The notes under the pieces are model-generated. The model was given only the letters and a program-made list of their open reading frames with translations, had not been told where the DNA came from and did not search any database. From an uncultured Gammaproteobacteria bacterium (lineage in GTDB: Bacteria; Pseudomonadota; Gammaproteobacteria; HK1), in the NCBI GenBank assembly GCA_947258715.1, contig CAMYJH010000011.1, positions 37,762 through 101,761 of the forward strand: a DNA stretch of 64,000 nucleotides, in the 5' to 3' direction. This document shows positions 2,313 through 64,000 of this stretch, piece by piece. Numbering within the stretch: the stretch's first letter is position 1; each line of letters begins with the position of its first letter. A program made the position numbers and the translations under genes.

Positions 2313-2562
2313 CTTTGTTGCTCCCTCCGGCAGACCGACTCAATTGAAGCCGGTCGCGCTTTAAGCTTGGTTTCTTGCGCAGGCTCGGGCGATAAGATAG
2401 CTTCATGCCCCCGCGGCTCCTAGCATCCATATATATTCGCGTTGTCACGCCCCGAATGTCATTCCCAGCCCGGCCGTCGCGGCCGTTCAAACCCCAACGC
2501 GTTTGCCTTGCGAATTGTTGCCGAAACGGCGACGCCGGCGAGCACCGTTCAATCAAGCGGTC
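2313..2562. other. Divergent promoter region, thioesterase / ccm operon
   Basis: Two divergent start sites face each other across 250 bases. Promoters for both genes must lie here; no clear operator seen. Confidence 0.5.
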
Positions 2563-3198: not shown

Positions 3199-3212
3199 AA
3201 CCGCACTCGACC

Positions 3213-3878: not shown

Positions 3879-3907
3879 AAGCGGTATTCGCTATCGAAGT
3901 CAACGAT

Positions 3908-4645: not shown

Positions 4646-4647
4646 GG

Positions 4648-4812
4648 GTGGCCGAGTTTTTTCACATGGGCGGGTACGGCGTTTACGTCTGGAGCGCCTA
4701 TGCCATCTGGCTGGCGGTCATGATCATCAACGTCGTCCAGCCGGCGATAAAGTCTCGCGGCACGCTCAAGCGCCTCGCGCGTTCCATTAACCAGAGGGCC
4801 AAACAAACGTGA
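4648..4812 (+). CDS. ccmD: Heme exporter small subunit CcmD
   Basis: A 54-residue protein with one membrane segment and a basic C-terminal tail. CcmD helps release holo-CcmE from the CcmABC complex. The start is a GTG giving VAEFFHMGGYGVYVWSAYAI, which matches the conserved EFFxMGGY beginning of the family. A longer frame from 4615 would overlap ccmC and lacks family support. The stop overlaps the start of ccmE (GTGA), so translation is probably coupled. Confidence 0.88.
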   Translation: MAEFFHMGGYGVYVWSAYAIWLAVMIINVVQPAIKSRGTLKRLARSINQRAKQT

Positions 4813-5261
4813 CTCCTAGAAGACAACGCATGATTTTTGTCGGTGTTATTGTGACCGGGGTGGCGCTCGCCGCGACCCTGGCCTTTATCGCGATTGGGGA
4901 GAATATGCTCTATTTCTTCAGCCCCACCCAGGTCAAAAACGGCGAAGCGCCAAGGGAACGGACTCTACGAGTCGGCGGCCTGGTGGTGCCCGGCAGCGTG
5001 GCTCGCGAACAGGGCAGTCTGACCGTGCAGTTCGATCTCAGCGACAACCGTGAGTCGCTGACGGTGAAGTATACGGGCATTCTTCCGGATCTGTTTCGCG
5101 AAGGTCAGGGCATCGTTGCTACCGGAGCCCTAGAGCCCGGCGGAACCTTCGTCGCCGAGGAGGTGCTGGCAAAACACGACGAGAAATACATGCCGCCGGA
5201 AGTGGCGGAAGCCCTCGAGCTCGCCGAGCAGGGCGGGCGCATGTCCAACCCCCAGGAGTAA
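4809..5261 (+). CDS. ccmE: Periplasmic heme chaperone CcmE
   Basis: A 150-residue membrane-anchored chaperone that binds heme covalently and passes it to CcmF/CcmH. It has an N-terminal anchor (about residues 8-28), the OB-fold body with LRVGGLVVPGSV, and the heme-binding His in LAKHDEKYMPPEV near residue 125. The Tyr after that His, an axial ligand in the family, is kept. GTG start overlapping the ccmD stop. Confidence 0.95.
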   Translation: MTPRRQRMIFVGVIVTGVALAATLAFIAIGENMLYFFSPTQVKNGEAPRERTLRVGGLVVPGSVAREQGSLTVQFDLSDNRESLTVKYTGILPDLFREGQGIVATGALEPGGTFVAEEVLAKHDEKYMPPEVAEALELAEQGGRMSNPQE

Positions 5262-5268
5262 CGTCACG

Positions 5269-7257: not shown

Positions 7258-7263
7258 GTCCCG

Positions 7264-7797
7264 TTGCCTCGTTTCACCGTCCCGCTGGGCATTTTTCTTC
7301 TTCTCGTCGTGCTCCTCGGCGTCGGACTGACACTGAATCCCCGGCTCGTGCCTTCGCCGCTGGTGGACAAACCTTTGCCGGCATTCGAGCTCCCCACGGT
7401 TCTGGATCCGGAACAGCGTCTTAGCCATGACGAATTGCGCGGCCGGGTGAGCCTGCTCAACGTCTGGGCCACTTGGTGCGTGCCCTGTCGCGAGGAGCAC
7501 CCGGTGCTGGTTGGCATCGCGCGCCGGGGTGAGGCAATAATCTACGGCCTCAACTACAAGGACGACCGTGAGGAAGCCGTAAACTGGCTCGAAACCCTGG
7601 GCGACCCTTACGTTAAAAGCGGCTTCGACCCGACGGGCCGCGCCGGTATCGATCTCGGCGTCTACGGCGTTCCCGAGACTTTCATCATCGATGCCAACGG
7701 AACCATCGTCTACAAGCACATCGGGCCATTCGACGACAAAATCTGGCGCGAAACGCTGCTACCGCTGGTGAAAAAGGCGCAGGAGAACAGCAGTTGA
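7264..7797 (+). CDS. ccmG: Thiol:disulfide interchange protein CcmG (DsbE)
   Basis: A 177-residue membrane-anchored thioredoxin-fold protein that reduces apocytochrome cysteines. Residues about 5-25 form the anchor, and the active site is WATWCVPCREEHPVL, with the acidic and GVYGVPETFIID signatures of CcmG. The start is TTG, chosen because it places the anchor at the N terminus right after ccmF. The stop overlaps the next start by 4 bases. Confidence 0.94.
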   Translation: MPRFTVPLGIFLLLVVLLGVGLTLNPRLVPSPLVDKPLPAFELPTVLDPEQRLSHDELRGRVSLLNVWATWCVPCREEHPVLVGIARRGEAIIYGLNYKDDREEAVNWLETLGDPYVKSGFDPTGRAGIDLGVYGVPETFIIDANGTIVYKHIGPFDDKIWRETLLPLVKKAQENSS

Positions 7798-8300
7798 TCT
7801 CACGCCGCTTAATCGCGCTGTCATTGGCGGCACTTTTGCTCGCTCTGATCGGGGGCGCCGCGGCGCAGGTGTTCGAGGCCAGGGAATTCGAGAATCCGGA
7901 GAACGCCCGTCGCTACCAGGTGCTCATCAGTGAGTTGCGCTGTCTCGTTTGCCAGAATCAAAACCTTGCCGACTCCAACGCTCCTCTGGCAGCAGATTTG
8001 CGCCAGCTGACTTACGACATGATTCGCGAAGGTAAGAACGACGCCGAAATCGTCGACTTCATGGTGGCGCGCTACGGCGAATTCGTGCTCTACCGGCCAC
8101 CGCTTAAACCCACGACCGCCATTCTATGGAGCGGTCCCTTTCTACTTCTCGCCATCGGTATCTGGCTACTGCTGCGCCACCTTCGCCGCCGCGCTTCGGC
8201 CACGGCTCAAGCTTCAGCGCTGTCGGCGGAAGAACGGGCCCGCCTGGCGCGCATGCTCGAGGCCGAGACTTCCGAAACGGATCCAGGAAAACGCGACTGA
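7794..8300 (+). CDS. ccmH: Cytochrome c maturation protein CcmH
   Basis: A 168-residue protein with a signal-like N terminus, the redox motif ELRCLVCQNQNLADSNA (LRCxxCQ), and a C-terminal membrane segment about residues 102-122. CcmH holds apocytochrome thiols for heme ligation with CcmF. It is the short type, without the C-terminal TPR half found in E. coli CcmH. The separate TPR subunit CcmI that usually follows is not here. Start is TTG, overlapping ccmG. Confidence 0.93.
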   Translation: MISRRLIALSLAALLLALIGGAAAQVFEAREFENPENARRYQVLISELRCLVCQNQNLADSNAPLAADLRQLTYDMIREGKNDAEIVDFMVARYGEFVLYRPPLKPTTAILWSGPFLLLAIGIWLLLRHLRRRASATAQASALSAEERARLARMLEAETSETDPGKRD

Positions 8301-37068: not shown

Positions 37069-39531
37069 TCATAGCTTGACGCGATTGAGTCGTAGCGCGT
37101 TCATTACGACCGAGACCGAGCTGAAGCTCATCGCCGCCGCGGCGATGATCGGGCTCAGTAAAATCCCGAACGCGGGATACAGCACCCCGGCCGCCACGGG
37201 TACGCCGACGGCGTTGTAGACAAAGGCAAAAAACAGGTTTTGACGGATGTTGCGCATGGCCGCGCGGCTCAGTCGCCGAGCCCGCACGAGCCCGCGCAGG
37301 TCGCCCTTTACGAGCGTCACACCGGCGCTCTCCATGGCCACGTCGGTGCCTGTACCCATGGCGATTCCGACCTGGGCCTGCGCTAGCGCGGGTGCGTCGT
37401 TAACGCCATCGCCAGCCATGCCCACGATGCGGCCCTCGCTTTGTAGCCGCTTGACCATCTCCGCCTTCTGATCGGGCAGCACGCCGGCAACGACCTCGTC
37501 CAGGCCAAGCTTGCGCGCCACCGCCTTAGCGGTGGTCGCGCTGTCCCCGGTGAGCATCACGATTTGCACCCCATCTTCATGCAACGCATTGATGGCAACT
37601 TGCGTCGTTTCCTTGATGGGATCGGCTACGCTCACCAGACCTGCCGCCTTGCGGTCAACGGCGACTAACATCACCGTCTGGCCTTCTTGGCGTAGCGCCT
37701 CGGCCCGTGCCGCGAGCGCGCCGGGAGATACTTTCAGAGTTTCGAGCAGTCGCGCATTGCCAAGCGCAACACGTGAGCCGTCCACCTCACCGGTCACGCC
37801 CTTGCCGGTTACGGACTCGAACGACTCCGCTTTGCCGAGCTCAACGCCCCGCTCGCTTGCGCCCTCGACAATCGCCGCCGCGAGCGGATGCTCGCTGCCA
37901 CGCTCGAGGGTCGCCGCAAGCCTCAGCAACATTGTCTCGTCGACTCCATTCAACGCCTCCACTTTGACGAGTTTCGGCTTTCCTTCCGTCAGCGTTCCCG
38001 TTTTGTCCATCACCAGGGTGTCGACTTTGCGCATTACCTCGATTGCTTCGGCGTTCTTGAAAAGGACGCCAAACTTCGCGCCCATACCCGTGGCGGTCAT
38101 GATGGACATCGGGGTCGCAAGCCCCAGCGCACAGGGACAAGCGATGATCAACACCGCCACCGCGTTGATAATGGCGTAGGCCATCGCCGGCGCGGGCCCT
38201 GCCAGTCCCCAGACAATGAAGGTGATGATGGCAATAACCACCACCACCGGCACAAAGTAACCGGCGACGATATCAGCGAGCTTTTGGATGGGCGCGCGGC
38301 TTCGCTGTGCCGCCGCCACCATTTGCACGATCTGCGAAAGCAGCGTATCGGCACCGACCCGTTTTGCCTCGATGGTCAAACCGCCGGTGCCGTTCACGGT
38401 GGCGCCGATTACCTTGTCGCCCGCCTCCTTCGCCACCGGGATCGGCTCGCCCGTCAGCATGGACTCGTCCACTGTGCTCATGCCCTCGACCACCACGCCG
38501 TCCACCGGCACCTTCTCGCCCGGCCTCACCCGCAGCCGGTCGCCGACCTGCACCAGTTCCAGCGGCACGTCAGCTTCGGAGCCATCGGCCTCGATGCGCC
38601 GGGCAGTCTTCGGGGTAAGGCCGAGCAGCGCCTTGATGGCGGCACCCGTGCGCTGGCGGGCCCGAAGCTCCATCACCTGTCCGAGCAGCACCAGGGTCAC
38701 GATCACCGCCGCCGCCTCGAAATACACCGCCACCTCGCCATGCGCGTCGCGAAAAGACGCGGGGAAGATTCCGGGCACCACCGTCGCCACTACGCTGTAG
38801 GCGTAGGCCACACCCGTGCCCAGTCCAATGAGGGTAAACATGTTGAGGCTGCGGTTGACCACCGACTGCCAGCCGCGGACGAAAAATGGCCATCCGCCCC
38901 AAAGCACTACGGGTGTTGCCAGCGCAAGCTCGATCCAGCCAAGCGTACGAGGCGTCGCTAGCCAGTCGAACGTTAGTCCCACCACATCGCCCATAGCGAT
39001 GATCACCAGGGGCACGGACAGAATCACACTCACCCAGAAACGGCGGGTAAAGTCCGCAAGTTCGGGATTCTCTTCCTCTTCCAGCGTTACCGTCACCGGC
39101 TCGAGCGCCATGCCGCACTTGGGGCACTCACCCGGCTCGTCGCGGACGATTTCCGGGTGCATCGGGCAAGTGTATTGCACCTTGGTAGGCAAAGCCGTTG
39201 GCATTTCAGGCTCCAGTGCCATACCGCAACTCGGACATGCCCCCGGGACGTCCTCGCGCACCTCCGTACACATCGGGCAGATGTAGGCGGCCGCTTCACC
39301 GGCCGATTGTGCCTTCGGCATGGGCTTGACCCCGCCTCCGACATAATGCTCGGGCGCGGCGCGGAATTTTTCCATGCAGCCGGTGCAGCAGAAGTAGTAG
39401 GCCTCGCCTTCATGGAGATGAGCGTGCTTCGACTCAGCAGTTACGGACATGCCGCAGACCGGATCGCGAAGCTCTAAGGTCGACCCCTTGCCAACATGCC
39501 CGTGGTCATGATGTGCGTGCGCTTGGTCCAT
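37069..39531 (-). CDS. copA: Copper-transporting P-type ATPase with YHS and two heavy-metal binding domains
   Basis: An 820-residue P1B ATPase. In order: His-rich N terminus (HAHHDHGH), YHS domain (RDPVCGMSV ... [12 protein letters not shown], about 25-65), two zinc-ribbon-like metal domains ([20 protein letters not shown] and [20 protein letters not shown]), then eight membrane segments. The ion motif is CPC in [13 protein letters not shown], phosphorylation [11 protein letters not shown], and hinge [16 protein letters not shown] with MSxxS-like helices fits Cu(I). No classical GMTCxxC HMA domain. ATG 39531 has AGGAA upstream. Confidence 0.93.
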
Positions 39532-39595
39532 TACCTGGGTTCCTTTCGAAGTTTTCAAAATGGCATCACCTGTTTCCGGCCGAATTCGTTTCTCT

Positions 39596-40225
39596 TCATC
39601 CCTGAGTCGCATCCACGCCGATCTGGATCAACTGATCCGAAACATACCGGTGCGGTGGAACCAGAAGATTGGTCGGTGCCGGCACCCCCTTGAATACGCG
39701 GCCTGCAAAGTCGAAGCGGGATCCGTGGCAAGGGCAAAAATAACCCCCGCGCCAGTCCGCGCCGAGATCCGCCGGGGCGATATCCGGACGAAAGGACGGC
39801 ACACAGCCAAGATGAGTGCAAAGCGCAACCACGACTAAATATTCCGGTCGAATTGAACGATAGTCGTTGCGCGCATACGTGGGCTGCTGGCTTTCCGCCC
39901 TTGACTCGGGATCGCGCAGCTCGTCGGTTAGCGTCTCCAACGTGGCGAGAATTTCGGGCGTGCGTCTGAGCAGCCAGACTGGCTTCCGGCGCCATTCAAC
40001 GGTGATTTGTTGCCCAGGCTCGAGCTTGCTTACATCCACGACGATCGGTGCGGCCGCCGCAAGAGCACGTTCGCTGGGCTTTAAAGAAAACAGAAACGGC
40101 ACAGCGACCAGCCCCGCGCCAATTCCGCCAACGATGGTGGTGCTTGTTACCAGGAAGCGTCTTCGATGAGAGTCCACGGATCCATCCGCGCTGCGAGCAC
40201 CCCCTTGAACCTGAAAAATTTCCAT
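39596..40225 (-). CDS. Rieske iron-sulfur protein (ubiquinol-cytochrome c reductase type), orphan
   Basis: A 209-residue protein with a twin-arginine type signal ([20 protein letters not shown]) and both Rieske boxes, CTHLGC and CPCHGS, near residues 139 and 170. The spacing and [12 protein letters not shown] tail match PetA. A longer start at 40258 is possible. No petB or petC follows; instead the copper ATPase lies just downstream. It may be a second Rieske serving another complex. Confidence 0.88.
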
Positions 40226-51306: not shown

Positions 51307-51884
51307 TATTAAGCGTCTTGCGCGCTGCAATTATTCGCCCTTCATATTCGAGAGACCTCCTTTAGATAGCGCGGCAAGGGGGAAATGGGGCGGGGGCGGC
51401 CAATCTGGGGAGTAAACAGACACCAAGAATATTGCTGTGATGTTTGATTATTGGCGGCCTTGCGGAGCTGAATTTTTCCGACGCCTTCCTGAGCTTGGTT
51501 CGGCACAGCAATACCCGCGATTTCTGCACTTTTCTGCGGCGAGGTGCGCGGCACTGTCCTAGAGGAATATGCCAAGACAACACACGACGAGAATAAGTCA
51601 GGGGCGCGCGCACTCTGTTCATATTGCCATGTTGTTCAGAACAACTGGACATAGATCGTGTCTTTCGAGGTGAAGACCACCAGGGAGCTTGTCCATCGCT
51701 TCTTGGGTGTCGTGGATACAAAGTAGAGATTCGAGGCCGAACGGCTGGAGATGGCATAGCGAGTCTGAAAACCAATCGAAATGACGGGCTCGGGAGGATG
51801 TTGCCAGTGCGGCAATCAGTCGGCGATGGCTCTGCAAGACCGGACCAACCGGGGAAGAGTGCGACAGGAGAAGGTGGGACGTTC

Positions 51885-52218
51885 ATGATCCCCTGCTTGG
51901 CGCTGCAATTTACCATCGGCGCGATCGTCGCGCTGCCTTTGCTTTAGTATATAATTTGGCGCGGCGCTAGGGGGAAAGCACCGCTCGAGGGCGTCACGTT
52001 GAGCGCCTGCCGGGGTTGGTGTTGGTATACATGATGCGCTGGAACAGGGTCATCGGCGACAGGAAATCTCCAAGACCGGCATGGGGCTACTGAGCTATCA
52101 GATGCAGTGCTTCGGCAGGCAAGGCCTGCTCATCGCGGCACTCGTGCGCCTTGCGCCCCTCGGCGCCTGGTTCGGGCTGACCCGATTTTTCCCGCCCTGG
52201 GAGGCCGGGGCGGCATGA
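51885..52218 (+). pseudogene. nrfD-like membrane subunit, decayed C-terminal remnant
   Basis: Pieces in shifting frames match the end of the intact NrfD at 61104-62318. MIPCLALQFTIGAI compares with LVPFFILQFSIGAV there. A TAG at 51945 interrupts before YIIWRGARGKAPLEGVTLSA (compare YMIWRGTTGRALIVGVTVSA). MMRWNRVIGD is in the next frame, and QEISKTGMGLLSYQM ... RFFPPWEAGAA in the third. That is one stop and two frameshifts. The final TGA overlaps the ATG of the next gene, so the ancestral operon was nrfD-cytochrome. Confidence 0.82.
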
Positions 52219-53447
52219 AGATCCTGTTCGCAGGCATGCTTGTCGCTGCCGTCGCGATCGGGTGGGGCTCGCGCGGCGCGGCAGCACAATCCGCAAACGT
52301 CACGCCCGAGCGCGATGACGCGCTGAGTGCGGTATACGCTACGCCGGTCGAAATCGCGGAAGGCGGGCGCATTGCGGAAGCGTCCTGCGCGCGCTGCCAT
52401 GGCGCCAACGGGATCAGCACCACCGATGGCGTGCCTCATCTCGCCGCCCAGCGCGCGGCGTATCTCAATCTCCAGCTGCGCGCCTATCGGCAACGTTCGC
52501 GCGTTCAAAGCGCCATGACCGGGATCGTGAGGTACTTGAGCGATGACGCACTGACCAGAGTCGCCGCCTACTACGCGAGCCTCGATCCGCCGCCGCCGGC
52601 GTCAGCCTCCGCCGAAGCAACGCCGTCCGGTTCCGACCCGGTGCAGGCCGGCAAGGCGGCGGCAGCCGCCTGCGGGGGCTGTCATGGCGAAACCGGCATC
52701 AGCAAGATACCCGGCATGCCGAGCTTGGTTTCGCTCGACCCGAAATACTTCGTCGCGACCGTGAGCGCGTACAAGAGCGGTCAACGCAAGCACGACGTGA
52801 TGAAATCCCTGGTTGCGGGCCTAGATGACGAGACCGTGAACAACCTGGCGCTCTTCTATGCGCTGCAAGAGCCCGCCAAGGCGCAGACCCCGGCCCCCGG
52901 CGACCCGGCGGCAGGCGAGAAAGCGGCTGCTTCCTGCGCCGCGTGCCATGGGGATGACGGAGTCAGCGGCAACCCCGCCACGCCGAGCGTCGCCGGTCAG
53001 GACGCCGCGTACCTCGCCTCCACGCTACGCGCCTACAAGGACGGGTCCCGCAAGAACGATTCGATGAACGGGCCGGCGGCGGCGCTCGACGAGCGCGCTA
53101 TGCAGGACATCGCGGCGTATTATGCGGCCCAGCAGCCGCAGCCGCTCAACGTACGCAGGCCGCTCACCACCGCGGAGTGGGCCGAGCGCTGCGACCGCTG
53201 TCACGGCCCCAACGGCAACAGCACCGATCCGCTGATACCGCGCCTCGCGGCGCAGCGCTCAGACTGGCTCGAGCAGGCCATTGACGCCTATCGCACAGGC
53301 GCGCGCCAGAGCACGGCGATGGCCGCCATGTCGTCGTTGATGAGCGAAGGGGACGTCGAGGCGCTTTCGGCCCACTATGCGCGGCAGAAGGCGCGCGCCG
53401 TCACGTACATAGTGCTGCCGCCCGTGGGCGAGAAACGCGACAAGTGA
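52215..53447 (+). CDS. Tetraheme cytochrome c, four c4-like modules
   Basis: A 410-residue periplasmic protein with a signal peptide (about 1-25) and four c-type modules with CARCH (58), CGGCH (153), CAACH (241) and CDRCH (326). Each is followed by a PxLAxQ/PSxAGQ segment and an AYYA-type helix, the c4/c5 pattern. The true start is the ATG at 52215 that overlaps the nrfD remnant; the frame upstream is not coding. It probably carries electrons between a quinol-oxidising complex and soluble partners. Confidence 0.9.
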   Translation: MKILFAGMLVAAVAIGWGSRGAAAQSANVTPERDDALSAVYATPVEIAEGGRIAEASCARCHGANGISTTDGVPHLAAQRAAYLNLQLRAYRQRSRVQSAMTGIVRYLSDDALTRVAAYYASLDPPPPASASAEATPSGSDPVQAGKAAAAACGGCHGETGISKIPGMPSLVSLDPKYFVATVSAYKSGQRKHDVMKSLVAGLDDETVNNLALFYALQEPAKAQTPAPGDPAAGEKAAASCAACHGDDGVSGNPATPSVAGQDAAYLASTLRAYKDGSRKNDSMNGPAAALDERAMQDIAAYYAAQQPQPLNVRRPLTTAEWAERCDRCHGPNGNSTDPLIPRLAAQRSDWLEQAIDAYRTGARQSTAMAAMSSLMSEGDVEALSAHYARQKARAVTYIVLPPVGEKRDK

Positions 53448-54250
53448 AACAAAAGGAATCCAGCGTGGATGACACACCGCTGCACCGGCAGTACCGCCAT
53501 TACTCCGAGCTGCCCTACAGCGTACGCGTACTGTACACGGCGACCTTGCTGATCCTCGGCACCGCCTACCTGTTCGCCGGGATTTACCTGTTTCATAGCT
53601 ACTCCGGAAAAGACGGAAATCCGATCACGCTCTCCTACGACGACATCGTCATCGCCTACAGCGGCAGCGGTGAGGGTTCGCGTCTCGAGGCGGCGCTGCG
53701 CGGATCGATGTCCGCCATGCTGCCGCGGGACGAGCTCAATTCGCTCGTCTCCTGGGTTCAGGATGGCGGCGAACGCGCCAGGTATGAACAGGAGGTCAGG
53801 TCGGTGTTCGACCAGCGCTGCATGGCCTGCCACGACGGCAGCAACCCGCACCTGCCGAACCTGAACGGCTACGACAACGTGCAGAAAGTCACCGAGCGCG
53901 ACACCGGCACCGGGTTGTTCACCCTTGTCCGCGTCTCGCATATCCACTTCTTCGGGCTCGCCTTCGTTTTCTTCATCCTGGGGAGCATTTTCAGCCACGC
54001 TTACGTGCGGCCGGTGTGGTTAAAGTGCACCGCGGTGGCATTTCCGTTCGTCGCGCTGACGTTGGATATCGGATCCTGGTACTTCACCAAGCTGTACCAC
54101 CCGTTCGCGTGGGTGGTGATGATCGGCGGCGCCCTCATGGGCCTGTCGTTCGTTTACATGTGGGTGGTGTCCATGTACCAGATGTGGTTCTCCCGCCCGC
54201 CCTCGGTAGTCACGGGCAGGGAGGGAGGCGAGGCGACCCATGTTGGCTGA
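53444..54250 (+). CDS. Membrane-anchored monoheme cytochrome c
   Basis: A 268-residue protein with a first membrane segment (about 28-50), a periplasmic part with one heme site RCMACHDGSN (126-130), and three further segments (about 163-185, 190-210, 215-245). His residues at the membrane faces (VSHIHFFGLA) could bind another cofactor. The overall plan recalls membrane cytochromes near multiheme reductases, but I do not recognise a named family. GTG start overlapping the upstream stop; middle gene of a three-gene operon. Confidence 0.8.
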   Translation: MKQKESSVDDTPLHRQYRHYSELPYSVRVLYTATLLILGTAYLFAGIYLFHSYSGKDGNPITLSYDDIVIAYSGSGEGSRLEAALRGSMSAMLPRDELNSLVSWVQDGGERARYEQEVRSVFDQRCMACHDGSNPHLPNLNGYDNVQKVTERDTGTGLFTLVRVSHIHFFGLAFVFFILGSIFSHAYVRPVWLKCTAVAFPFVALTLDIGSWYFTKLYHPFAWVVMIGGALMGLSFVYMWVVSMYQMWFSRPPSVVTGREGGEATHVG

Positions 54251-54271: not shown

Positions 54272-55411
54272 ATGAAACGACTTACGCTGGGAATCGTGTT
54301 ATCGGCGGCGCTGCTCGGATGCTCGGACGACGAGCAGGGAATGCCGGCAAAGGACGCACCCGAGAAGCACACGGCCGACGTGGTCGCCGGCAAGGCGTTC
54401 GCCGCGCAGGAGTGCAAGGCATGCCATGGGCTGGACGGCAAAGGGGCTGTGCCTGCGATTCCGCACCTCGCGGCGCAGCGCGAGCGCTATCTGATCGCCG
54501 CGCTGAACGCCTACAAGGAAGGCAAGCGCACGCACGCTGCGCTGAGGGAGATTGCCGCACATATGACCGACGCTGACGCACGCAACGTGGCCGCGTACTA
54601 CGCCTCTCAGCCGCCGGTGAAGACTAAGCCCGCCGCGGACGACGGGTTCGCCTCGCCCTACGCGCATGGCAAGAAACTCGCAGCGGCCTGTGCACGGTGC
54701 CACGGCGAAGACGGCAACAGCAGCACGCCGGGCACGCCCAGCCTCGCCGGCCAGCAGCCGCGCTACCTGGTCGTGGCAATGCAGGAATACCTGAAGAAGG
54801 AGCGCAAGGCCTCACCGATGCACGCGCTCCTTCCCGGGCTGACGCAACTGGACAAGGAGAGCCTGGCGCTGTATTTCGCGTCCCAGGCGCCAGTGCAACG
54901 CGCCGCTCCGCCTTTCGGCGACGCCGCGGCCGGTGAACCGCTGAGCGCCGTTTGCGGTGGATGCCACGGCTCGCACGGCGTGAGCACCGACAGCGCGACG
55001 CCGAGTCTCGCCGGCCAGGACGCGCACTATCTGGTCGATGCCATCAAGGCCTATCGCACGACCCGGCAGCGGGAAAACATGCGGCTCTACGTCACCGGGC
55101 TAAGCGATACGGAGGTGCAGAATATCGCCGCCTTCTACGCCGTGCAGAAATCGACGGCGGCGGAAAAAGGAGAGACGCTGGTCAAGGACCTCACCGCCAA
55201 GTGCGAACGCTGCCACGCGGCCGATGTGGACATTCCGGGGATGGTGGTTCCCAAGATCAGGGGCCAAGACCGAGACTATCTGGTGATGGCGCTCAGGGCC
55301 TACCGCGACGACCGGCGCGAGAGCTCGATGATGCACAAGATGAGCCTGCCGTACAGCGATTCGATCATAGAAAGCATATCCTCGTTCTACGCCAGCCAGC
55401 CGGCGAGATAG
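54272..55411 (+). CDS. Tetraheme cytochrome c lipoprotein
   Basis: A 379-residue protein with a lipobox (SAALLGC, Cys 17) and four c4-like modules: CKACH (48), CARCH (140), CGGCH (228) and CERCH (311). Each is followed by the family pattern (PxLAGQxxxYL ... AYYASQ). It is a paralogue of the protein at 52215 but lipid-anchored. Last intact gene of the operon. The fourth module is similar to the decayed copy at 58399. Confidence 0.9.
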   Translation: MKRLTLGIVLSAALLGCSDDEQGMPAKDAPEKHTADVVAGKAFAAQECKACHGLDGKGAVPAIPHLAAQRERYLIAALNAYKEGKRTHAALREIAAHMTDADARNVAAYYASQPPVKTKPAADDGFASPYAHGKKLAAACARCHGEDGNSSTPGTPSLAGQQPRYLVVAMQEYLKKERKASPMHALLPGLTQLDKESLALYFASQAPVQRAAPPFGDAAAGEPLSAVCGGCHGSHGVSTDSATPSLAGQDAHYLVDAIKAYRTTRQRENMRLYVTGLSDTEVQNIAAFYAVQKSTAAEKGETLVKDLTAKCERCHAADVDIPGMVVPKIRGQDRDYLVMALRAYRDDRRESSMMHKMSLPYSDSIIESISSFYASQPAR

Positions 55412-55439: not shown

Positions 55440-55735
55440 GTCAGTGTGGAGTTCGAATTTCGCGTCGTCCGGCCGCGACGCGGCCGGCTTGGCGATCCGC
55501 ACGCTGATCAGCGGGGCGTTCTTGCCGCGCATCCTGAAGTAGCGCCCGACCCTCGGCGCCCTTCTGGCCCAGAAACGCCGCCGCCACGTCCATGAAGGTC
55601 GGGCCCATTTTTCGGTAGTCCATTGCGTGCCCGTTAAGGCATCCCATGGCCTTCACGACATCCGCCTCCGATTGGGCAAAGGCCGAGCCCGCCCCGAGCG
55701 CCCGCCGGCGCCATAATGAAGACCGTTGCGTTTAT
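55440..55735 (-). pseudogene. Decayed monoheme cytochrome c gene with CLNGH in place of CxxCH
   Basis: A minus-strand frame reads GSAFAQSEADVVKAMGC then LNGHAMDYRKMGPTFMDVAA, like a c551/c5 cytochrome after its signal cut site and like SKGCLGCHAMDSRKVGPALK in the decaheme fusion. The second heme Cys is Gly, the signal peptide has no in-frame ATG (the only ATG is in another frame), and after GAEGR similarity continues in a different frame (YFRMRGKNAPLISVRIAKPA). It lies between the convergent cytochrome operons. Confidence 0.75.
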
Positions 55736-55762: not shown

Positions 55763-57979
55763 TTACCCCGTACGCGCTACGAAGCCGGTCACCACCAGGA
55801 CGAGCAGGATCAGGCCGATCGCGATCAGGGTGAATCCCAGGACCTTGGAGCCCAAAGTCATCGCCCGCGACGGTGCGTCCACCAGGTACTTCTTGAGCTG
55901 CCCCGTTTCCACCAGACGCTGGTACTCGAGCGCGTGCTCGCGCCTGAATTCCTCCAGCGGCACGGCGCCGGTGAACATCACGATGTCGAGCGGGAACTTG
56001 TCCGGTCGGAAGTGGTTGTTGAAGAAGTGCACCGTGAACAGGAACACGGCGGCGAGCACGGCTTCCTCGCCGTGAACGATCGTTGCAACGTTGAACATCC
56101 ACCCCGGAAGCACCGAGGCGGTCTCGGTCGGAAACGCCAACATCAAGCCGCTACCGCCAATGATCGCCATGCCCCAGAACACCGCCCAGTAGTCGAACTT
56201 TTCCCAGTAGGTCCAGCGGTCGAATACCGGTCGCGGCCTGAGCCCCAAGAACCACGCGAACATGGCGACGATGTCCTTCAAGTCCTGCCAAGTGGGTACC
56301 AGCGACACCGGTCCGAACCACTGGAACGTTTTCCAGTTCCTCCCGATGCGGATCGCGAGATAGACCAGGTGGACGAAGAAGATGCCGAGCATGATCGCCG
56401 CGGCCGCGCGGTGCACGATGGCCGCAATCTTCGGGCCGCCGAACAACGCGGCGACGGCTTTCGCCCAGGCGCTGTCGGCGAAAAATACCGCCATACCGGT
56501 CAAGACCAGCGTCATGACGCTCAAGGCGAACACCAGATGAGCGAGGCGCCAGACCGGCCCGAACCGCTGGTATTGCTTGCCCTGCAGTTGCAATGAATCG
56601 TCTGCGACGACGTGCGGCCGCATCTTGCCTTGCTGACGGTCCCGGTACTCGCGGTAGAACCACAGCACGGTATGCGTCCAGAAGGACACGAACACCCCCA
56701 CCAGCAGCGCGATCATGAACTTCGCCGCGATCCACACCTGGGGATAACGACTGAAATCGTGGGTCGTGGCATGCGGCTCGAAGCTGACGTATCCAGCACT
56801 CGCGTAGGCGTGGCACTGGCGGCAGGTCTCCAGGCGCCTGGCCGGGTGAACCATGGACTCCGGTTCGCTCACAGGCTGGATGGTGTGACTGCCGTGACAG
56901 TCGAAGCACTTCGCCGTATAGGCGTAGCCCAGGGTGGCGACCTGGCCGTGATAGGTTTCGGTATAGGTGCGCAGACTGTCGGCATGGCAAGTACCGCAGT
57001 TCTTGGTGATGACGAGCCTGCTCGAATCCGCTTCCGGCGTTTCGATTTCGTGCGTGGTATGGCAATCCGAGCACACGGCCGCAGAGGGGTCACGCTCCTC
57101 CAATACCTCCTTGCCGTGCACCGAGGTCGCGTAGGCTTCGCGCTGCTTCGCGTGGCACTTGCCGCAGGCATCCGGAATGCTCAGCCGCCACTCGGTGCGC
57201 GCGGCGCTGCCTTTCGGATACACGTAGTGGGCATCGTGGCAGTCGTAGCAGGTGGCATTGGTGCGCGACTGGTCGTCCCGGTTGGGCCGTGCATGAATCG
57301 AATGCATGTACTTCTCGATCTGACTAACCACCACGCCCAGCCTCGCGTTCTCCGCGGTCTTGTTCTCTTTCTGGGCGGTTGCCCATAATGCTTCGTGGCA
57401 TTGCACGCAGCTGACCTTGCGCTGCGCGACTTTCTGGTGCGGAATCTGCGTGATGTCCTTGTGGCACTCGATGCACTGCCGCCTGCCGTGCACGCTGCTT
57501 TCGAAATTCTCCCGGCTCACGTGCAGCGACCGCATTTTCCCATCCGCGCCCGGCATCGCGAATCCCTCGTTGCCGTGGCAGCCCAGGCAGGTCGCGTTGT
57601 CGGGTTTCACCGCGGCCGTTTCGGCAGCAACCGGCTCGGCGCTCTTGGCGCTCGATACCTGCGCGGTGAGAATATGCTGCACGATGGCTCTTAGTTCGCC
57701 ATCGGAAGCGTCGGCCTTGACCGGATGACCCTTGCCTTCCTTGAGCGCCGCGATCAACTTGCTTTCGGCCTGCGGGTCGTCCTTGTATTTCGCGGCGGAG
57801 TCCTTCAGTGCCGGGCCGACTTTCCTCGAGTCCATCGCATGGCAACCGAGGCAGCCCTTGGAATCCAACAGTTCCTCGCCGGTCTGAGCGCGGGCCGCGC
57901 CCGCCTGCAGCATACCCGCCGCCGTCAGCAGCAGCAGCGTCGCTTTAACGACGCGATTCAACTTGCCGGTAGTCGTCAT
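55763..57979 (-). CDS. Decaheme cytochrome c - cytochrome b fusion (CbcL-like quinone oxidoreductase)
   Basis: A 738-residue protein: signal peptide (1-31), a c5-like domain with CLGCHAMDSRKVGP (43-47), then nine more sites (CLGCH, CIECH, CVQCH, CYDCH, CGKCH, CSDCH, CGTCH, CFDCH, CRQCH) to about residue 400. A C-terminal b-type domain with about five membrane segments has His pairs (FWTHTVLWFY, WRLAHLVFAL, IVHRAAAAIM, FFVHLVYLAI). This resembles Geobacter CbcL, which links menaquinone to periplasmic cytochromes. ATG 57979 is chosen for the signal peptide; it overlaps the stop of the small gene upstream. Confidence 0.88.
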   Translation of the reverse strand: MTTTGKLNRVVKATLLLLTAAGMLQAGAARAQTGEELLDSKGCLGCHAMDSRKVGPALKDSAAKYKDDPQAESKLIAALKEGKGHPVKADASDGELRAIVQHILTAQVSSAKSAEPVAAETAAVKPDNATCLGCHGNEGFAMPGADGKMRSLHVSRENFESSVHGRRQCIECHKDITQIPHQKVAQRKVSCVQCHEALWATAQKENKTAENARLGVVVSQIEKYMHSIHARPNRDDQSRTNATCYDCHDAHYVYPKGSAARTEWRLSIPDACGKCHAKQREAYATSVHGKEVLEERDPSAAVCSDCHTTHEIETPEADSSRLVITKNCGTCHADSLRTYTETYHGQVATLGYAYTAKCFDCHGSHTIQPVSEPESMVHPARRLETCRQCHAYASAGYVSFEPHATTHDFSRYPQVWIAAKFMIALLVGVFVSFWTHTVLWFYREYRDRQQGKMRPHVVADDSLQLQGKQYQRFGPVWRLAHLVFALSVMTLVLTGMAVFFADSAWAKAVAALFGGPKIAAIVHRAAAAIMLGIFFVHLVYLAIRIGRNWKTFQWFGPVSLVPTWQDLKDIVAMFAWFLGLRPRPVFDRWTYWEKFDYWAVFWGMAIIGGSGLMLAFPTETASVLPGWMFNVATIVHGEEAVLAAVFLFTVHFFNNHFRPDKFPLDIVMFTGAVPLEEFRREHALEYQRLVETGQLKKYLVDAPSRAMTLGSKVLGFTLIAIGLILLVLVVTGFVARTG

Positions 57980-58188
57980 TAGAGCTTCTTCCCCTGGACG
58001 TGAATTCTGGTGCCAATCCCGACGCTGGCCGGGAACGACACCTGATTGCCGCGGGTCGTGATGTTGGCGGCGCGGACCGCGACGCGGAAGGTGGAGGCCT
58101 CGCCTTCCTTCAACGCCCTGTCTACCGATGCCGCGTAGGCAACCGTCGACACCATCGTTATCAGGCCGATGCACACGCGAGCAAGCAT
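57979..58188 (-). CDS. Small exported protein coupled to the decaheme fusion gene
   Basis: A 69-residue frame with a signal peptide (LARVCIGLITMVSTVAYAAS) and a short polar mature part (VDRALKEGEASTFRVAVRAA). Its TAA overlaps the ATG of the fusion gene (TAATG), so translation is likely coupled. No Cys in the mature part, no known family. A second ATG at 58155 is possible. It may be a subunit, or a truncated remnant kept for coupling. Confidence 0.55.
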   Translation of the reverse strand: MLARVCIGLITMVSTVAYAASVDRALKEGEASTFRVAVRAANITTRGNQVSFPASVGIGTRIHVQGKKL

Positions 58189-58702: not shown

Positions 58703-59476
58703 TCATTTACTGGCGTGTAAACTCCGCTTTTTCGCCTGTTTTTGCCTTGCCAACACGGTCCGACTTGAAACCTCATCAAACCCCACCTGACGAAACATGT
58801 CTGATAACTCGTCAGCGGAATAAAACATGCGTAGCGCATCGATAAAGTATTCCTTGCAGCCATGGGCCGAGGTCGAGCTTCGAAAAAGCAGTCCGGTAAA
58901 GTTCAGACAAAAACGCAGGTAAGCGTAATAGCAGGTCTCCACTGTTTTGTTGGCCGGCCGCAGCATGTCACAGTGATAGAAGTGTCCACCCGGTTTCAGT
59001 ACCCGCCTAATTTCCCGGCAGACATCCATGATGCGTAAATGCCGCGAGGCGTACTGCAGGGTGACCACCTCGAAATGGTTGTCGGGAAAGGGCAGGGTAT
59101 GGACATCACCGATGGTGCTTTCGATGTGCATACCTAGCTTGCGTGCCGATTCCTGCCCTACCCTCTGCATGGCCTTGCTGCGGTCCATGGCGTGGACATG
59201 CAAATCCGGCTGTTTACTCAAGAGAGCGATGCCAATGGCGTTGGTGCCGGCGCATACATCCAACACTTTCTGCCCACTTTGCACGTCTATGCTGGAAATA
59301 AAGCGGTTGCGCAACCAGTTCCAGAGACCGAGGCTAGCGACATGATTGGCGCGGTCGTAATAACGGGCGACATCAGAAAAAACATCGTCCAGTTCTTCTC
59401 CCCAAATCTGTTTGAATTGCTGCTCCCGATTTTCCTCTCTCAAAGAAAACGGGATCACGTGTTCGTTACTGGTCAT
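58703..59476 (-). CDS. UbiE/MenG-type SAM-dependent methyltransferase
   Basis: A 257-residue class I methyltransferase. The opening FSDVARYYDRANHVASLGLW is characteristic of the UbiE/COQ5/MenG quinone methyltransferases, followed by the SAM loop KVLDVCAGTNAIGIALLS, MDRSKAM, DVHTLPFPDNHFEVVTLQYA and VLKPGGHFYHCDMLRP. ATG 59476 has GGAAG upstream; a longer start at 59521 is possible. It has visibly lower GC than its neighbours, suggesting transfer. Beside quinone-linked cytochrome genes it may modify a menaquinone, which is inference. Confidence 0.8.
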   Translation of the reverse strand: MTSNEHVIPFSLREENREQQFKQIWGEELDDVFSDVARYYDRANHVASLGLWNWLRNRFISSIDVQSGQKVLDVCAGTNAIGIALLSKQPDLHVHAMDRSKAMQRVGQESARKLGMHIESTIGDVHTLPFPDNHFEVVTLQYASRHLRIMDVCREIRRVLKPGGHFYHCDMLRPANKTVETCYYAYLRFCLNFTGLLFRSSTSAHGCKEYFIDALRMFYSADELSDMFRQVGFDEVSSRTVLARQKQAKKRSLHASK

Positions 59477-59630
59477 ATGTCTTGTGCTTCCGTCATTAAC
59501 TGTTGTAGAAGTAAGCCGCAAGGACTGGACACGGCGTTAAGTAAAATCTCCTGCCTGGCTATCAGGCCGCCTGGGCGAGGTCGCCCGGGTCAAAGTACAC
59601 CACATTCGGCGTGTGCCGCTCAACTGAGCT

Positions 59631-60171
59631 CTAACGTCGAGACGTATTGTAAAACGGAAAGTATCGGTTGAGCACAACCCTGAGCGTGGCCGGCGTTTCA
59701 CAGTCGCGTAGGTAGATGTCCTCGTACATGACGCTGCGCCACAGGCGCTCCACGAACACGTTATCGACCCAGCGCCCATGCCGTCCTGCTGATGTCGATA
59801 CCATGGTCCTTGAGCACGTCGGTGAACGCCTCTGAGGTGAACTGGGACCCCCCTTTTGGCCGGTGTTGAATGTTTCCGGCGCGCCATGGTGTTCTAGGGC
59901 GTCCTGATGCGCTTCGACACAGAAGCCGCTGTCCATGGAATTCGACAGCCGCCAGCACTGCGCCCGACGCGAGTGCCAGTCCATGGTCGAGACCGGGTAG
60001 ATGAAGCCCTTGGCCATCGGAACGTAGCTCGATGCCACTCGCCCAGACCTGGGCCGGATGGACATCGTGCTACCCAGCAATCTACGCCACCGTTTGCTCG
60101 CCAATGTGGGCCTCCAGCGCTGTCTTGGCTTTGAATGCGAATCTCTGGTTGCGTCTTTTTCTACGCCTCAT
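59631..60171 (-). pseudogene. IS3-family transposase remnant (orfA start joined to orfB end)
   Basis: It begins MRRRKRRNQRFAFKAKTALE, the typical OrfA start, then stops after EAHIGEQTVA. Shortly after, and in shifting frames, come OrfB integrase-core pieces: SYVPMAKGFIYPVSTMDWHS, GGSQFTSEAFTDVLKDHGID, RWVDNVFVERLWRSVMYEDI and LRDCETPATLRVVLNRYFPF. The middle of the element is deleted and several frameshifts and stops are present. Confidence 0.85.
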
Positions 60172-60350: not shown

Positions 60351-60936
60351 ATGCGCCGGGTTGCATGCCCGGACCGTGGGGTGAAGATTGAGGGGGTGCC
60401 CTGGGAGAGCGGCAAGCACCAGCTCACCGACACCCGGGCGTGGTTTCCGGCCCGCTGGGCAAGACGGTTGTCGTGGCAGGAGGACGCCGAGATTTGCCAC
60501 ACCCGCCGGGAGAAACCCTTCCGCCCGGTCGAAACGGCGGTCGAGTGGGGTCATGCGCATCAGGAGCTTTCCGGCGTCAGCGCGATTGGTATCGATGAGT
60601 TCGCATGGCAACGCGGCTCTCGATTTCCGACGCCTGTATACCAGATCGACGAAGCTTCTCGGCGTCTACCGTGTGCCGGTGAGCAACGGCGAGTGAAGAC
60701 ACTGCTGGGCTTCTTTCACTGGTTCGGCGCTGAGGTTCGCTATCTGCCCGGACATGCGGCGCCCTGACCTAACGGTGATCGCCAACAAGGCCGTGGGTGC
60801 CATTGACGTACTCGACCGCCTCCACATCATGGCCAAGATGAGCAAGGCGTTCGACGAGGTTCGGGCTCAGGCGTCGAGAGCGCTTGCAGCCAAGGGCTAC
60901 CAGCCGCTGGTTCCGAGCCAAAGACGCGGAGCCTGA
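60351..60936 (+). pseudogene. ISL3-family transposase remnant
   Basis: GVKIEGVPWESGKHQLTDTR, RAWFPARWARRLSWQEDAEI, IGIDEFAWQRGSRFPTPVYQ and VKTLLGFFHWFGAEV are ISL3 transposase segments including an IDE/DEF catalytic region. Near 60755 the frame shifts, continuing as RRPDLTVIANKAVGAIDVLD and RLHIMAKMSKAFDEVRAQAS before it ends. Both ends of the protein are missing. Confidence 0.85.
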
Positions 60937-61103: not shown

Positions 61104-62318
61104 TCACGGCGCCCCGCTTTCAGCGAGCGGCGCCGATTTGTGTCCCCAGGGCGGAAGCAGCCGGACCATCCCCCATAACAGAAACAGCGGCCCAACCACC
61201 AAACTGACGGCGGTCACCAGACCCTCCCTGTGGAATATGACCATCTGATAGGTAAGCAGGCCCTTGCCGGTTTTGGCGATTTCCTGCCCGCCGATGACGA
61301 CGTTCCAGCGCATCATCCACACCGAAAACAGCACCAGCAACGCGCTCACCGTAACGCCAACGATCAGCGCCCTTCCGGTGGTTCCCCGCCAAATCATGTA
61401 CGTGAGCACCAGAAGCGGTATCACGGCGCCGATGCTGAACTGCAGGATAAAGAAAGGCACCAGTAGCGGACCCGTCACGTACTCCACGATCATCTCGATT
61501 CCCTCGCGGCCCTTGTAGATGACATTGGCGAACTCGAGTCCCTCGAGCACCAGGGTAAACATCGCGAACCCCCAAAGCACGTAAGCCAGGCCCTTCAGGC
61601 ACTTCAGGTCAACCGCGATCCTGCGCAGACCGCAGGACAGGACATAGAGCACAATCAGCAGCGCGACCCCGGAGATGACGGCGGAAAACAAAAATACCAC
61701 CGGCATGAGATCAGAGGACCACCATTCCCGGGACTTAAGGGAGCCGAATACGAACCCCACGTATCCGTGCAGCCCGTGCGCGGCGGGTATGCCGATGACG
61801 GCCAGATAGAAAATACATTTCTCGTCGTAACGCATCGCTTTCGGCGAAACGTCGTCAGACCCGAGGCTGGCCAAATGCCACAATCTTCCGGCAAGCCCAC
61901 TGCTGTGCTGCGCCTGTTGCACGAAATAGGGCCGGAACATGAACCAGATTTCCAGCACCAGCAGAATGACGTAGAAACTGGCAAAAAACCCGAAGACGGC
62001 GATGGCCGAGGTCACGTGCGGCGTGATCATGGTGTTGAACGCCCGCTGCGGACTGCCGAGGTGCAACAGCAGGGGCAGGGGCACGAAGATCATGAAGGCG
62101 AGCGCCGTGAGCAAGGCGAACTGCCCCACGGGCTTGAACCGCTCCATGCCGAAGACATGATAAAGACTCGAAACGGTAAAGGCCCCGGCCACCAATCCGG
62201 TGAGATATGGATAAACGACGATCAGCACCGTCCACGGAATGATCGTCTCGTTGGGGTAGACGTAGCCCGTGTACGGGGCGACTTCAACGAGGTGTCCCAG
62301 GAAGCTTTCGGATTCCAT
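61104..62318 (-). CDS. nrfD: NrfD/PsrC-type membrane quinone-interacting subunit
   Basis: A 404-residue membrane protein with about ten hydrophobic segments. NrfD/PsrC proteins exchange electrons between quinones and an FeS partner. Family features include VVYPYLTGLVAGAFTVSSLY, LLLHLGSPQRAFNTMITPHV and RWNVVIGGQEIAKTGKGLL near the end. It starts one base inside the end of the FeS gene (TGATG) and follows it on the minus strand. It shares clear similarity with the decayed copy at 51885. Confidence 0.9.
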   Translation of the reverse strand: MESESFLGHLVEVAPYTGYVYPNETIIPWTVLIVVYPYLTGLVAGAFTVSSLYHVFGMERFKPVGQFALLTALAFMIFVPLPLLLHLGSPQRAFNTMITPHVTSAIAVFGFFASFYVILLVLEIWFMFRPYFVQQAQHSSGLAGRLWHLASLGSDDVSPKAMRYDEKCIFYLAVIGIPAAHGLHGYVGFVFGSLKSREWWSSDLMPVVFLFSAVISGVALLIVLYVLSCGLRRIAVDLKCLKGLAYVLWGFAMFTLVLEGLEFANVIYKGREGIEMIVEYVTGPLLVPFFILQFSIGAVIPLLVLTYMIWRGTTGRALIVGVTVSALLVLFSVWMMRWNVVIGGQEIAKTGKGLLTYQMVIFHREGLVTAVSLVVGPLFLLWGMVRLLPPWGHKSAPLAESGAP

Positions 62319-63169
62319 CAGCTCACCTCCTTGTCGATGCCCACGTAATAGACGTTCGGAGCGTTACCGCTTTCAGGTCGGAGAACCTGCACGCGGTTGT
62401 TGCGGATGAAGAGGCTGATAGGACTCTGCTTGTCGAGGAGGTTGCCGAAGACGCGCGCGCCGACCGGACATGCCTCGACGCAGGCCGGCTGCAGTCCCTT
62501 GGTAATGCGGTGATAACACCAGTAGCACTTCTTCGTAACACCCTTTTTCGCATCTAAGTAACGTGCGCCGTAGGGGCAGGCCTGCACGCAGTACTGACAG
62601 CCGATGCAGTATGTTTCGTCGATGAGAACCACGCCGTCCTTGGTCTGAAATGTGGCGCCGGTAGGACACACCTGCACGCAGGCCGGGTGCGTGCACTGGT
62701 TGCACAGCTTGGGGACGAAGAAAGCCTTTTCCACCTTCGCGTCCTTGTAGCGGTTCGCAAAACGATATTTGCTTTGCGTTCCGGAGGCCGCGATGTTTAC
62801 CGGATCGTGTTGGCTGTCGATACGCGGCTTGGTTTCACCCTCTAAGTAGACGTAGCGTTCGACCCAGGTGTTGAAGTGATGGGCGTCATTGGGAACGTTG
62901 TTCTCGATCTTGCACGCCTCCACGCAACGCAGGCAGCCGATGCATTTCGTGGCATCGACGCCGAAGCCCCAGCGGTGCTTGGTCCAGTCGTAATCGGCGG
63001 TTGGGAACGACTCCGTGGCGGCGGTAGATTCGTTGCTCTTAGCTGCCGCGTTCCGCACGGCGTCCAACCTACCGCCGTACATAAGCGCGCCGGTATAGGT
63101 TGCGGCACGACCGAGACCACGTAGGAAGCTACGGCGTGCAACCGACGAGAGTTTGGTCTTCTTTGTCAC
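62318..63169 (-). CDS. nrfC: NrfC/PsrB-type ferredoxin subunit with four [4Fe-4S] clusters
   Basis: A 283-residue electron-transfer subunit with a twin-arginine signal (ARRSFLRGLGRAATYTG), so it is exported folded. Four cluster motifs are visible: CIGCLRCVEAC, CNQCTHPACVQVCP, CIGCQYCVQACP and CYWCY ... CVEACP. It bridges the multiheme cytochrome upstream (ATGA overlap) and NrfD downstream, the standard order for a membrane quinone-linked reductase or oxidase module. Confidence 0.92.
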   Translation of the reverse strand: MTKKTKLSSVARRSFLRGLGRAATYTGALMYGGRLDAVRNAAAKSNESTAATESFPTADYDWTKHRWGFGVDATKCIGCLRCVEACKIENNVPNDAHHFNTWVERYVYLEGETKPRIDSQHDPVNIAASGTQSKYRFANRYKDAKVEKAFFVPKLCNQCTHPACVQVCPTGATFQTKDGVVLIDETYCIGCQYCVQACPYGARYLDAKKGVTKKCYWCYHRITKGLQPACVEACPVGARVFGNLLDKQSPISLFIRNNRVQVLRPESGNAPNVYYVGIDKEVS

Positions 63170-64000
63170 TTTGCTATTTCTCCTTCAGCTCCGGACCGGC
63201 AGCTCTGGGCGGCGAAGTAGGCGGCGAGATGATTGATGTCTGGGTCGCTCAGCCCCCTCGAGACGCCCGCCATCATCGGGTCCTTGCGCAGGCCTGCCCT
63301 GAAAGCCTTGAGCACGTTCACGAGGTAGCCCGGCTTCTGGCCTGCAATGCGCGGCCAAGCGGGGTTGCTCGGGATGCCGGTCTTACCGTGACAGCTCACG
63401 CAATTACTATCCGCCAGGGCCTGGCCCGCGGCAACGTCACCGACCTGCGCCGTGCTTGGCGTCCCGTTACAGCTCAAGCCCGCGTAATAGGCCGCCAAAT
63501 TCTGGATATCGGAATCGCTCAGCGCTTGGGCCAACGGCGTCATCGCCACGTCTATCTGGTCACCGGACTTGTACGCTGCGAGTATGCGCGCGAGATATGC
63601 GGCGTTCTGGCCGGCCAGACTCGGCCACGTATCGTTGGGACTGATCCCTTTCGCCCCGTGACAGCTGGCGCAACTGGCTGCGTGTGTCCTGCTTCCTGCT
63701 TCAGCATCGCCGGCCACTATTACCGGAACGCCCGCAATCTTAGGCGCATGCGGGTTGTGGCAAACGACGCACTGCTGGTTTTTCGCGTGCTGAGCGACCA
63801 CGACTTGCGGCTGCAGCCGGGGCCGCTCCGGCATGGCTTCATGGCACAGGCTGCAAAGCTTTACCGTCTCGGTCGGGATCGGCAGCTTTTCGCTCTCCGG
63901 ATGACCCTTGGCCGGGCCGTGACAGGTTTCGCACATCACCGTCTTGTGGTTATTGGCCGACCACTGTGCGCTCCGTTCGACATGGCACGGCTGGCAATAG
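63166..64000 (-). CDS. Multiheme cytochrome c, C-terminal part (5' end outside window)
   Basis: The frame is open to the right edge; the start and signal lie beyond. The visible part has six heme sites: CQPCH, CETCH, CSLCH and CVVCH in a compact multiheme region, then two c4-like modules with CASCH and CVSCH, each with WPSLAGQ/WPRIAGQ and LAAYYA-type helices. So it joins a NrfH/NapC-like or octaheme-type front to c4-type modules. It is the first gene seen in the cytochrome-nrfC-nrfD operon. Confidence 0.87.
   Translation of the reverse strand, partial: YCQPCHVERSAQWSANNHKTVMCETCHGPAKGHPESEKLPIPTETVKLCSLCHEAMPERPRLQPQVVVAQHAKNQQCVVCHNPHAPKIAGVPVIVAGDAEAGSRTHAASCASCHGAKGISPNDTWPSLAGQNAAYLARILAAYKSGDQIDVAMTPLAQALSDSDIQNLAAYYAGLSCNGTPSTAQVGDVAAGQALADSNCVSCHGKTGIPSNPAWPRIAGQKPGYLVNVLKAFRAGLRKDPMMAGVSRGLSDPDINHLAAYFAAQSCRSGAEGEIAK

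Follow-up and report, generated by a model that had tools for sequence, protein, structure and literature searches.

Which periplasmic carrier meets the quinone cytochrome of the inner membrane is an open question in the Mto and Mtr pathways. In Sideroxydans, the partner of ImoA was reported in a 2026 study to be PmcA and not MtoD (PMC13390432). The window analyzed here is a 64,000-nucleotide stretch of contig CAMYJH010000011.1 from the genome of an uncultured Gammaproteobacteria bacterium (4.89 Mb, 110 contigs; the window edge at 64000 is the contig end). At 55763..57979 on the minus strand, it encodes a ten-haem quinone cytochrome of the CbcL/MtrH/MtoC family, 738 amino acids (aa) long, in which a monohaem domain is joined to a nonahaem core. 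By joining a monohaem carrier naturally to a quinone cytochrome, this fusion suggests which partner is likely, and the distal His of its haem predicts a measurable ligation.

The assignment was based on the open frame, Pfam and homologue searches, an alignment, and a tree. The gene runs from an ATG at 57979 to a stop at 55763 as a single uninterrupted frame of 738 codons, with 10 CxxCH motifs starting at residues 43, 131, 169, 191, 244, 272, 303, 328, 358, and 386. PF01292 (Ni_hydr_CYTB) was matched at 473-653 with 40 bits against a cut-off of 30.1, Pfam positions being numbered one higher than those of the protein due to one extra leading residue in the query. Several multihaem c models matched the middle of the chain. 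A sequence-only reading of this DNA had described one 738-residue chain with 10 CxxCH motifs and a C-terminal b-type membrane domain, and the frame, the motif count, and PF01292 confirmed it. Among 7,996 candidates scored, 4,353 homologues were retained at an E value of 0.001 or less. On the gammaproteobacterial host suspected in that earlier reading, the names are mixed: the top match, 91% identical, carries the name Gammaproteobacteria, whereas 8 of the 13 organism-named matches listed are Betaproteobacteria or Burkholderiales.

Conservation was assessed in an alignment of 104 rows, comprising the window protein and 103 of the 120 listed homologues (17 were excluded). In the nonahaem core (residues 128-411; 56747..57598, minus strand), all nine CxxCH motifs were invariant, as were nine spare His residues at 164, 181, 229, 251, 288, 310, 344, 365, and 403, equal in number to the core haems. 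The 10-haem observation is not a chance one, because there are 4,353 homologues and the nine core motifs are invariant throughout the alignment. All nine spare His were also kept in the 80 relatives whose loci were fetched, wherever a relative has a letter at that position (79 or 80 rows). Eight CxxCH motifs were counted in 29 relatives; in 27 of these, the ninth motif is CxxxCH, and the remaining two either lack the first core motif (L025) or are truncated by the contig start (L039). L047, with six motifs, is truncated too.

The C-terminal domain (residues 413-738; 55766..56743, minus strand) contains six long helices in the structure model, at 413-449, 475-499, 516-547, 591-615, 627-656, and 705-737. 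Its His residues 481, 523, 636, and 651 were invariant in all 104 rows and aligned by hhalign with H18, H57, H155, and H169 of FdnI (1KQF, Escherichia coli formate dehydrogenase N), which we take to be haem ligands. The earlier proposal of a quinone-type cytochrome b was thus borne out by the four His, the FdnI alignment, and PF01292; loss of these His had been named beforehand as the observation that would count against it, and all four are present. We predict a dihaem domain with an FdnI-like fold and ligands H481/H523/H636/H651. FdnI shares the fold and the four ligand positions, but it is part of the formate dehydrogenase complex, whereas the b domain of the window protein shares one covalent chain with a multihaem c domain. 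Searching the b domain alone against PDB by sequence gave no useful match (best E value, 1.3). Foldseek rows other than class I cytochromes c, FdnI, and a related hydrogenase cytochrome b, such as channels and ferritins, were set aside as chance matches.

With a multihaem N-terminal part and a six-helix HydC/FdnI-like b domain, the protein belongs to the CbcL/MtrH/MtoC family. Zhong and Shi (2018) described 138 homologues from 15 phyla, Proteobacteria contributing 103; their haem motifs number 3 to 23, and they occur in Fe(III) reducers as well as Fe(II) oxidizers. No feature setting oxidizing members apart from reducing ones was found in that survey (PMC6295460). In the same source, adjacency to mtrAB or mtoAB is frequent (seven species) but not required. 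No such adjacency was found here, as the MtrA and MtrB genes of this genome lie on another contig. The CbcL-like plan that had been proposed held up, with nine core haems and the b domain, and a common plan of nine c haems and a dihaem b membrane domain is described for Geobacter sulfurreducens CbcL (PMC9129911), compared with ten c haems in the window protein. The accompanying claim that the protein is new because it lies outside the Desulfuromonadota was dropped, since the 138 published members already span 15 phyla (PMC6295460) and the closest named kin are MtoC and MtrH of iron-cycling proteobacteria. The idea of a distinct electron exit or entry point survives in a weaker sense: within a known family, what remains is a variant with a tenth haem fused on and a lineage linked to c4 proteins.

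Core identity was 57.3% to L036, 56.4% to L041, 56.0% to L049, and 55.7% to L053, with values of 56 to 57% for three Gallionellaceae loci. At these four loci, the cytochrome gene is followed by monohaem, MtrA-like, and MtrB-like genes; the latter two labels, here and at other loci, derive from haem counts, length, and similarity to the pair of our own genome. Identities of 35 to 36% between G. sulfurreducens CbcL and MtrH/MtoC have been published (PMC6295460), and measured against these figures, which stand in for a direct comparison with CbcL, the window protein appears to be nearer MtoC/MtrH than CbcL. It shares with MtoC/MtrH of Gallionella, Dechloromonas, and Rhodoferax a nonahaem periplasmic part, a six-helix dihaem-b-type membrane part, and invariant ligand His. 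It differs from them in its extra N-terminal monohaem domain and in its neighbors, which are c4-like tetrahaem proteins, a PF27139 protein, and an NrfD/iron-sulfur (FeS) module instead of mtoABD.

The possibility raised earlier that the nearest kin are ordinary NapC-type fusions was rejected on architecture, as 10 haems and a C-terminal six-helix domain contrast with a tetrahaem protein bearing one N-terminal anchor helix. The NrfH model scored 28.1 bits against a cut-off of 134.2. PF03264 was absent from the Pfam result; in a whole-genome search with neighboring pieces it scored 28.8 bits against 24.1, over residues 35-177, and 4 of the 120 listed homologues carry it as a precomputed label.

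The tenth haem resides in an N-terminal class I c domain (residues 33-108; 57656..57883, minus strand) with an MtoD/c551 fold. Matches to Pfam Cytochrom_C (33-106) and to c551 chains of PDB, including 4XXL (MtoD), agree with the earlier description of a separate c5-like first module. H47 comes from the haem motif, and 94 of 99 rows in the alignment carry H85. As H85 is conserved and no Met is, the haem is predicted to be bis-His ligated (H47/H85) like that of MtoD, whose crystal structure revealed His47/His95 ligation (PMC4412085). The class I c fold and, by prediction, a His as the distal ligand are common to this domain and MtoD of Sideroxydans lithotrophicus ES-1, but MtoD and PmcA of that organism are free proteins, whereas the window domain is fused to a quinone cytochrome.

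The fused haem is rare among the fetched relatives, occurring in 2 of 80 (L005 and L050; L039 and L047 are truncated there and uninformative). These two, L006, and the window protein form a four-row group with a support of 100 in a tree of 81 rows, built from the 80 loci and the window by a quick method with midpoint rooting. Among the metagenome proteins of the 104-row alignment, a set picked by score against the window protein, a motif occupies the tenth-haem site in 93 of 104 rows. In a class-wide sample of 274 genomes, 24 (our own included) matched at 1e-30, some over the b domain alone, and in the other 23 no alignment extended before residue 98.

The origin of the domain is suggested by its closest sequences. 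It is 72% and 62% identical to the fused domains of L050 and L005, and next by bit score are separate 96-aa monohaem genes that immediately follow the cytochrome in these loci (57% in L050 and 49% in L005). A gene of this 96-aa kind is the immediate neighbor of the cytochrome in 27 of 80 loci. The window retains a decayed copy without its haem motif at 55450..55701 (minus strand), corresponding to the intact gene just after the cytochrome in L005 and L050. The simplest reading is that a neighboring shuttle gene was duplicated and then fused to the cytochrome. Neither the fusion nor the cluster is named in the titles and abstract openings of the papers listed on c4/NrfD/MtrA wiring, the monohaem-MtoC fusion, MtoC/MtrH, or CbcL in gammaproteobacterial groundwater genomes, which does not prove that they are missing from print.

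The cytochrome also belongs to the half of the tree in which c4-like (mostly tetrahaem) and PF27139 proteins are the neighbors. One half (39 loci, including three of the four Gallionella-type rows and the Rhodoferax rows) contained 23 loci with a monohaem neighbor, 4 with a c4-like neighbor, and 1 with PF27139; the corresponding counts in the other half (41 loci and the window) were 4, 30, and 20. Many loci are truncated by contig ends, which makes absences of neighbors soft. The c4-like cluster comprised 75 genes, of which 46 have four haem motifs, 12 have six, and 17 have one to three. This half, here almost exclusively from metagenome-assembled genomes, may represent a second wiring plan. 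A split version of the nonahaem-plus-cytochrome-b architecture, named by eye, was seen in eight loci (L011, L026, L030, L051, L057, L067, L075, and L080), where cytochrome b and a nonahaem protein of about 450 aa are encoded by two adjacent genes, next to a gene resembling sensor kinases (in most cases with a CxxCH) and a regulator of the sigma-54 type.

In the window, two tetrahaem c4-like genes, identified by Pfam and profile matches, lie beside the cytochrome on the opposite strand (54272..55411, a PdsA-like tandem, and 52215..53447, both plus strand), as had been noticed before. Each matches the model of PdsA, the periplasmic dihaem shuttle of Mtr pathways, in three stretches, with scores of 138.8 and 117.5 bits that are under the model cut-off. 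Between them, at 53444..54250 (plus strand), is a membrane protein gene with one CxxCH and a precomputed PF27139 label, a family that our Pfam search did not report; 3,351 of 4,232 candidates were homologues at an E value of 0.001 or less. On the other side of the cytochrome are genes for an NrfD-family membrane subunit (61104..62318), whose cluster also has members in relatives, an FeS subunit (62318..63169) for which the best NCBIfam models, DsrO and TtrB, were both under their cut-offs, and a multihaem c3-plus-c4 protein (63166..64000) truncated by the contig end, all on the minus strand. In L005, the monohaem, c3-c4, FeS/NrfD, c4, PF27139, and c4 genes are all on one strand; the window has the same kinds of genes in a rearranged order with two transposase remnants between.

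A check for porin-cytochrome genes elsewhere in the genome had been suggested, and it identified one strong MtrB (455 bits) beside a 10-haem MtrA (281.9 bits) on contig C53. This MtrA is 60.7% identical to the L036 Gallionella protein over 280 residues. The cytochrome is the sole intact member found of the two quinone-step families covered, NapC/CymA and CbcL/MtoC, with ImcH, NetBCD, bc1, and alternative complex III outside that search. The single NapC/NirT stretch that stands on its own in the genome is a broken gene in the window (51535-51876, plus strand; PF03264, 77.4 bits) with four internal stops. MtrB scored over its cut-off in 63 of the 80 genomes with a relative of the cytochrome (34 of 47 and 29 of 33) and in 4 of 37 other genomes around our own, a contrast that is confounded by taxonomy and completeness and counts as support, not proof.

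Taken together, the fused-monohaem protein probably links the quinone pool, periplasmic c4-type cytochromes, and the MtrA/MtrB conduit, whose genes are on another contig. Judged from sequence, it is most likely a quinone oxidoreductase for extracellular electron transfer, serving either extracellular reduction or electron uptake. Quinone would be oxidized or reduced at the two b haems, and electrons would pass along a nine-haem wire of bis-His haems. The N-terminal haem would act as a tethered form of an MtoD/PmcA-type shuttle, the tetrahaem c4-like proteins as PdsA-like relays to MtrA, and MtrA/MtrB as the exit or entry of electrons. More tentatively, and with somewhat less than even confidence, we suggest that one branch of MtoC/MtrH turned its own monohaem shuttle into a tethered arm and became wired to the tetrahaem c4 and PF27139 proteins, replacing free MtoD; the NrfD/FeS/multihaem complex would supply a second quinone module within the gene cluster. 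Uncultured Betaproteobacteria and their relatives would then possess a periplasmic wiring for extracellular electron transfer that evolved separately.

Several observations weigh against the proposed link to MtrA/MtrB or the model behind it. The MtrA/MtrB pair is on another contig and so has no operon link with the cytochrome; an MtrC-type protein over the cut-off was not found in our genome (best, 17.5 bits). Of the 80 genomes with a relative, 17 have no MtrB over the cut-off. Among the three rows closest in the tree, MtrB is seen in the genome of L005 but not in the genomes of L050 (nearest of all; 3.5 Mb) and L006 (2.0 Mb). According to PMC10654088, acidophilic iron oxidizers use c4 proteins for oxidases and bc1 too, and c4 neighbors alone therefore do not indicate MtrA. 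As for the b domain, the hhalign probability against FdnI, a single sequence, was low (28.6%; E value, 6e-4), Foldseek gave an E value of only 3.9e-3 for 1KQF, and the structure model was moderate (predicted local distance difference test score, 75.8; predicted template modeling score, 0.60) and contains no haems.

Some of these points would suit a periplasmic respiratory branch instead of extracellular transfer. In such a branch, electrons would run between the quinone pool, the cytochrome, and c4 proteins, ending at a soluble enzyme or an oxidase; the NrfD/FeS/multihaem complex, whose NrfD module could react with quinone too, would take part. The nearest genes are indeed c4-like and NrfD/FeS genes, not mtrAB; NrfD/FeS genes recur near the cytochrome in L005, L010, L028, L050, and L082; and the close kin L050 and L006 come from the genomes without MtrB. 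We nevertheless regard such a branch as unlikely, given the MtrA/MtrB pair of our own genome, the frequency of MtrB among genomes with a relative, and the presence of MtrA- or MtrB-like genes within c4-linked loci (L013, L020, L024, L029, L033, L037, and L051).

It is most improbable that the cytochrome represents a strict Geobacter-type CbcL working in low-potential Fe(III) reduction: the nine-haem-plus-b plan is shared (PMC9129911), but the published CbcL identities cited above are well apart from the core identities of about 56 to 57% to Gallionellaceae proteins, CbcL itself having entered only through those published values. Decay offers another explanation, in which the gene would be a nonfunctional leftover of a decaying island acquired by horizontal transfer. 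Although remnants of monohaem, NapC-like, and EB_dh-like genes and of two transposases surround it and the full-length protein was found in none of the 37 other related genomes, all 738 codons are intact with every haem motif and ligand present, the branch length is 0.17 compared with 0.16 for the nearest relative, and there is no sharp G+C break; loss of function is therefore very unlikely.

Directly upstream of the cytochrome is a 69-aa open reading frame (57979..58188, minus strand) that overlaps its start in the sequence TAATG. A conserved small secreted gene was considered and rejected, as the frame has no Pfam family and looks like an EB_dh leftover; with a second half similar to the C-terminal end of an EB_dh (PF09459) haem protein, it is likely a remnant. 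Proteins of one cluster, most of them with a single haem, are encoded near the cytochrome in L011 (5803-7107), L012, L020, L022, L031, L043, L050, and L069. The L011 member is an EB_dh (PF09459) protein, and the window apparently keeps the remnant at 57979-58188 alone. The two transposase remnants, rve-like at 59634-60104 (minus strand) and ISL3-like at 60351-60767 (plus strand), both under Pfam cut-offs, sit between the cytochrome and the NrfD/FeS genes.

A UbiE/COQ5-type methyltransferase paralogue at 58703-59521 (minus strand) scored 115 bits, compared with 295 for the best copy, on contig C3. Members of this cluster also occur in L040, L045, L055, L061, L067, and L080, directly after the cytochrome in L055, and quinone tailoring for the cytochrome pathway is a possible function. 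A 1,498-aa protein with 20 CxxCH motifs and Ig-like repeats is encoded on contig C19 of our genome (L096:1164-5660). Farther away in the window are cytochrome c maturation genes (2503-8300, plus strand) for an ABC-type subunit, CcmE, and CcmF; members of their clusters were also found near the cytochrome in L005, L011, L014, L042, and L050. A P-type metal ATPase with HMBD and YHS domains is encoded at 37072-39612 (minus strand) and has homologues in L006, L028, L031, L043, and L046.
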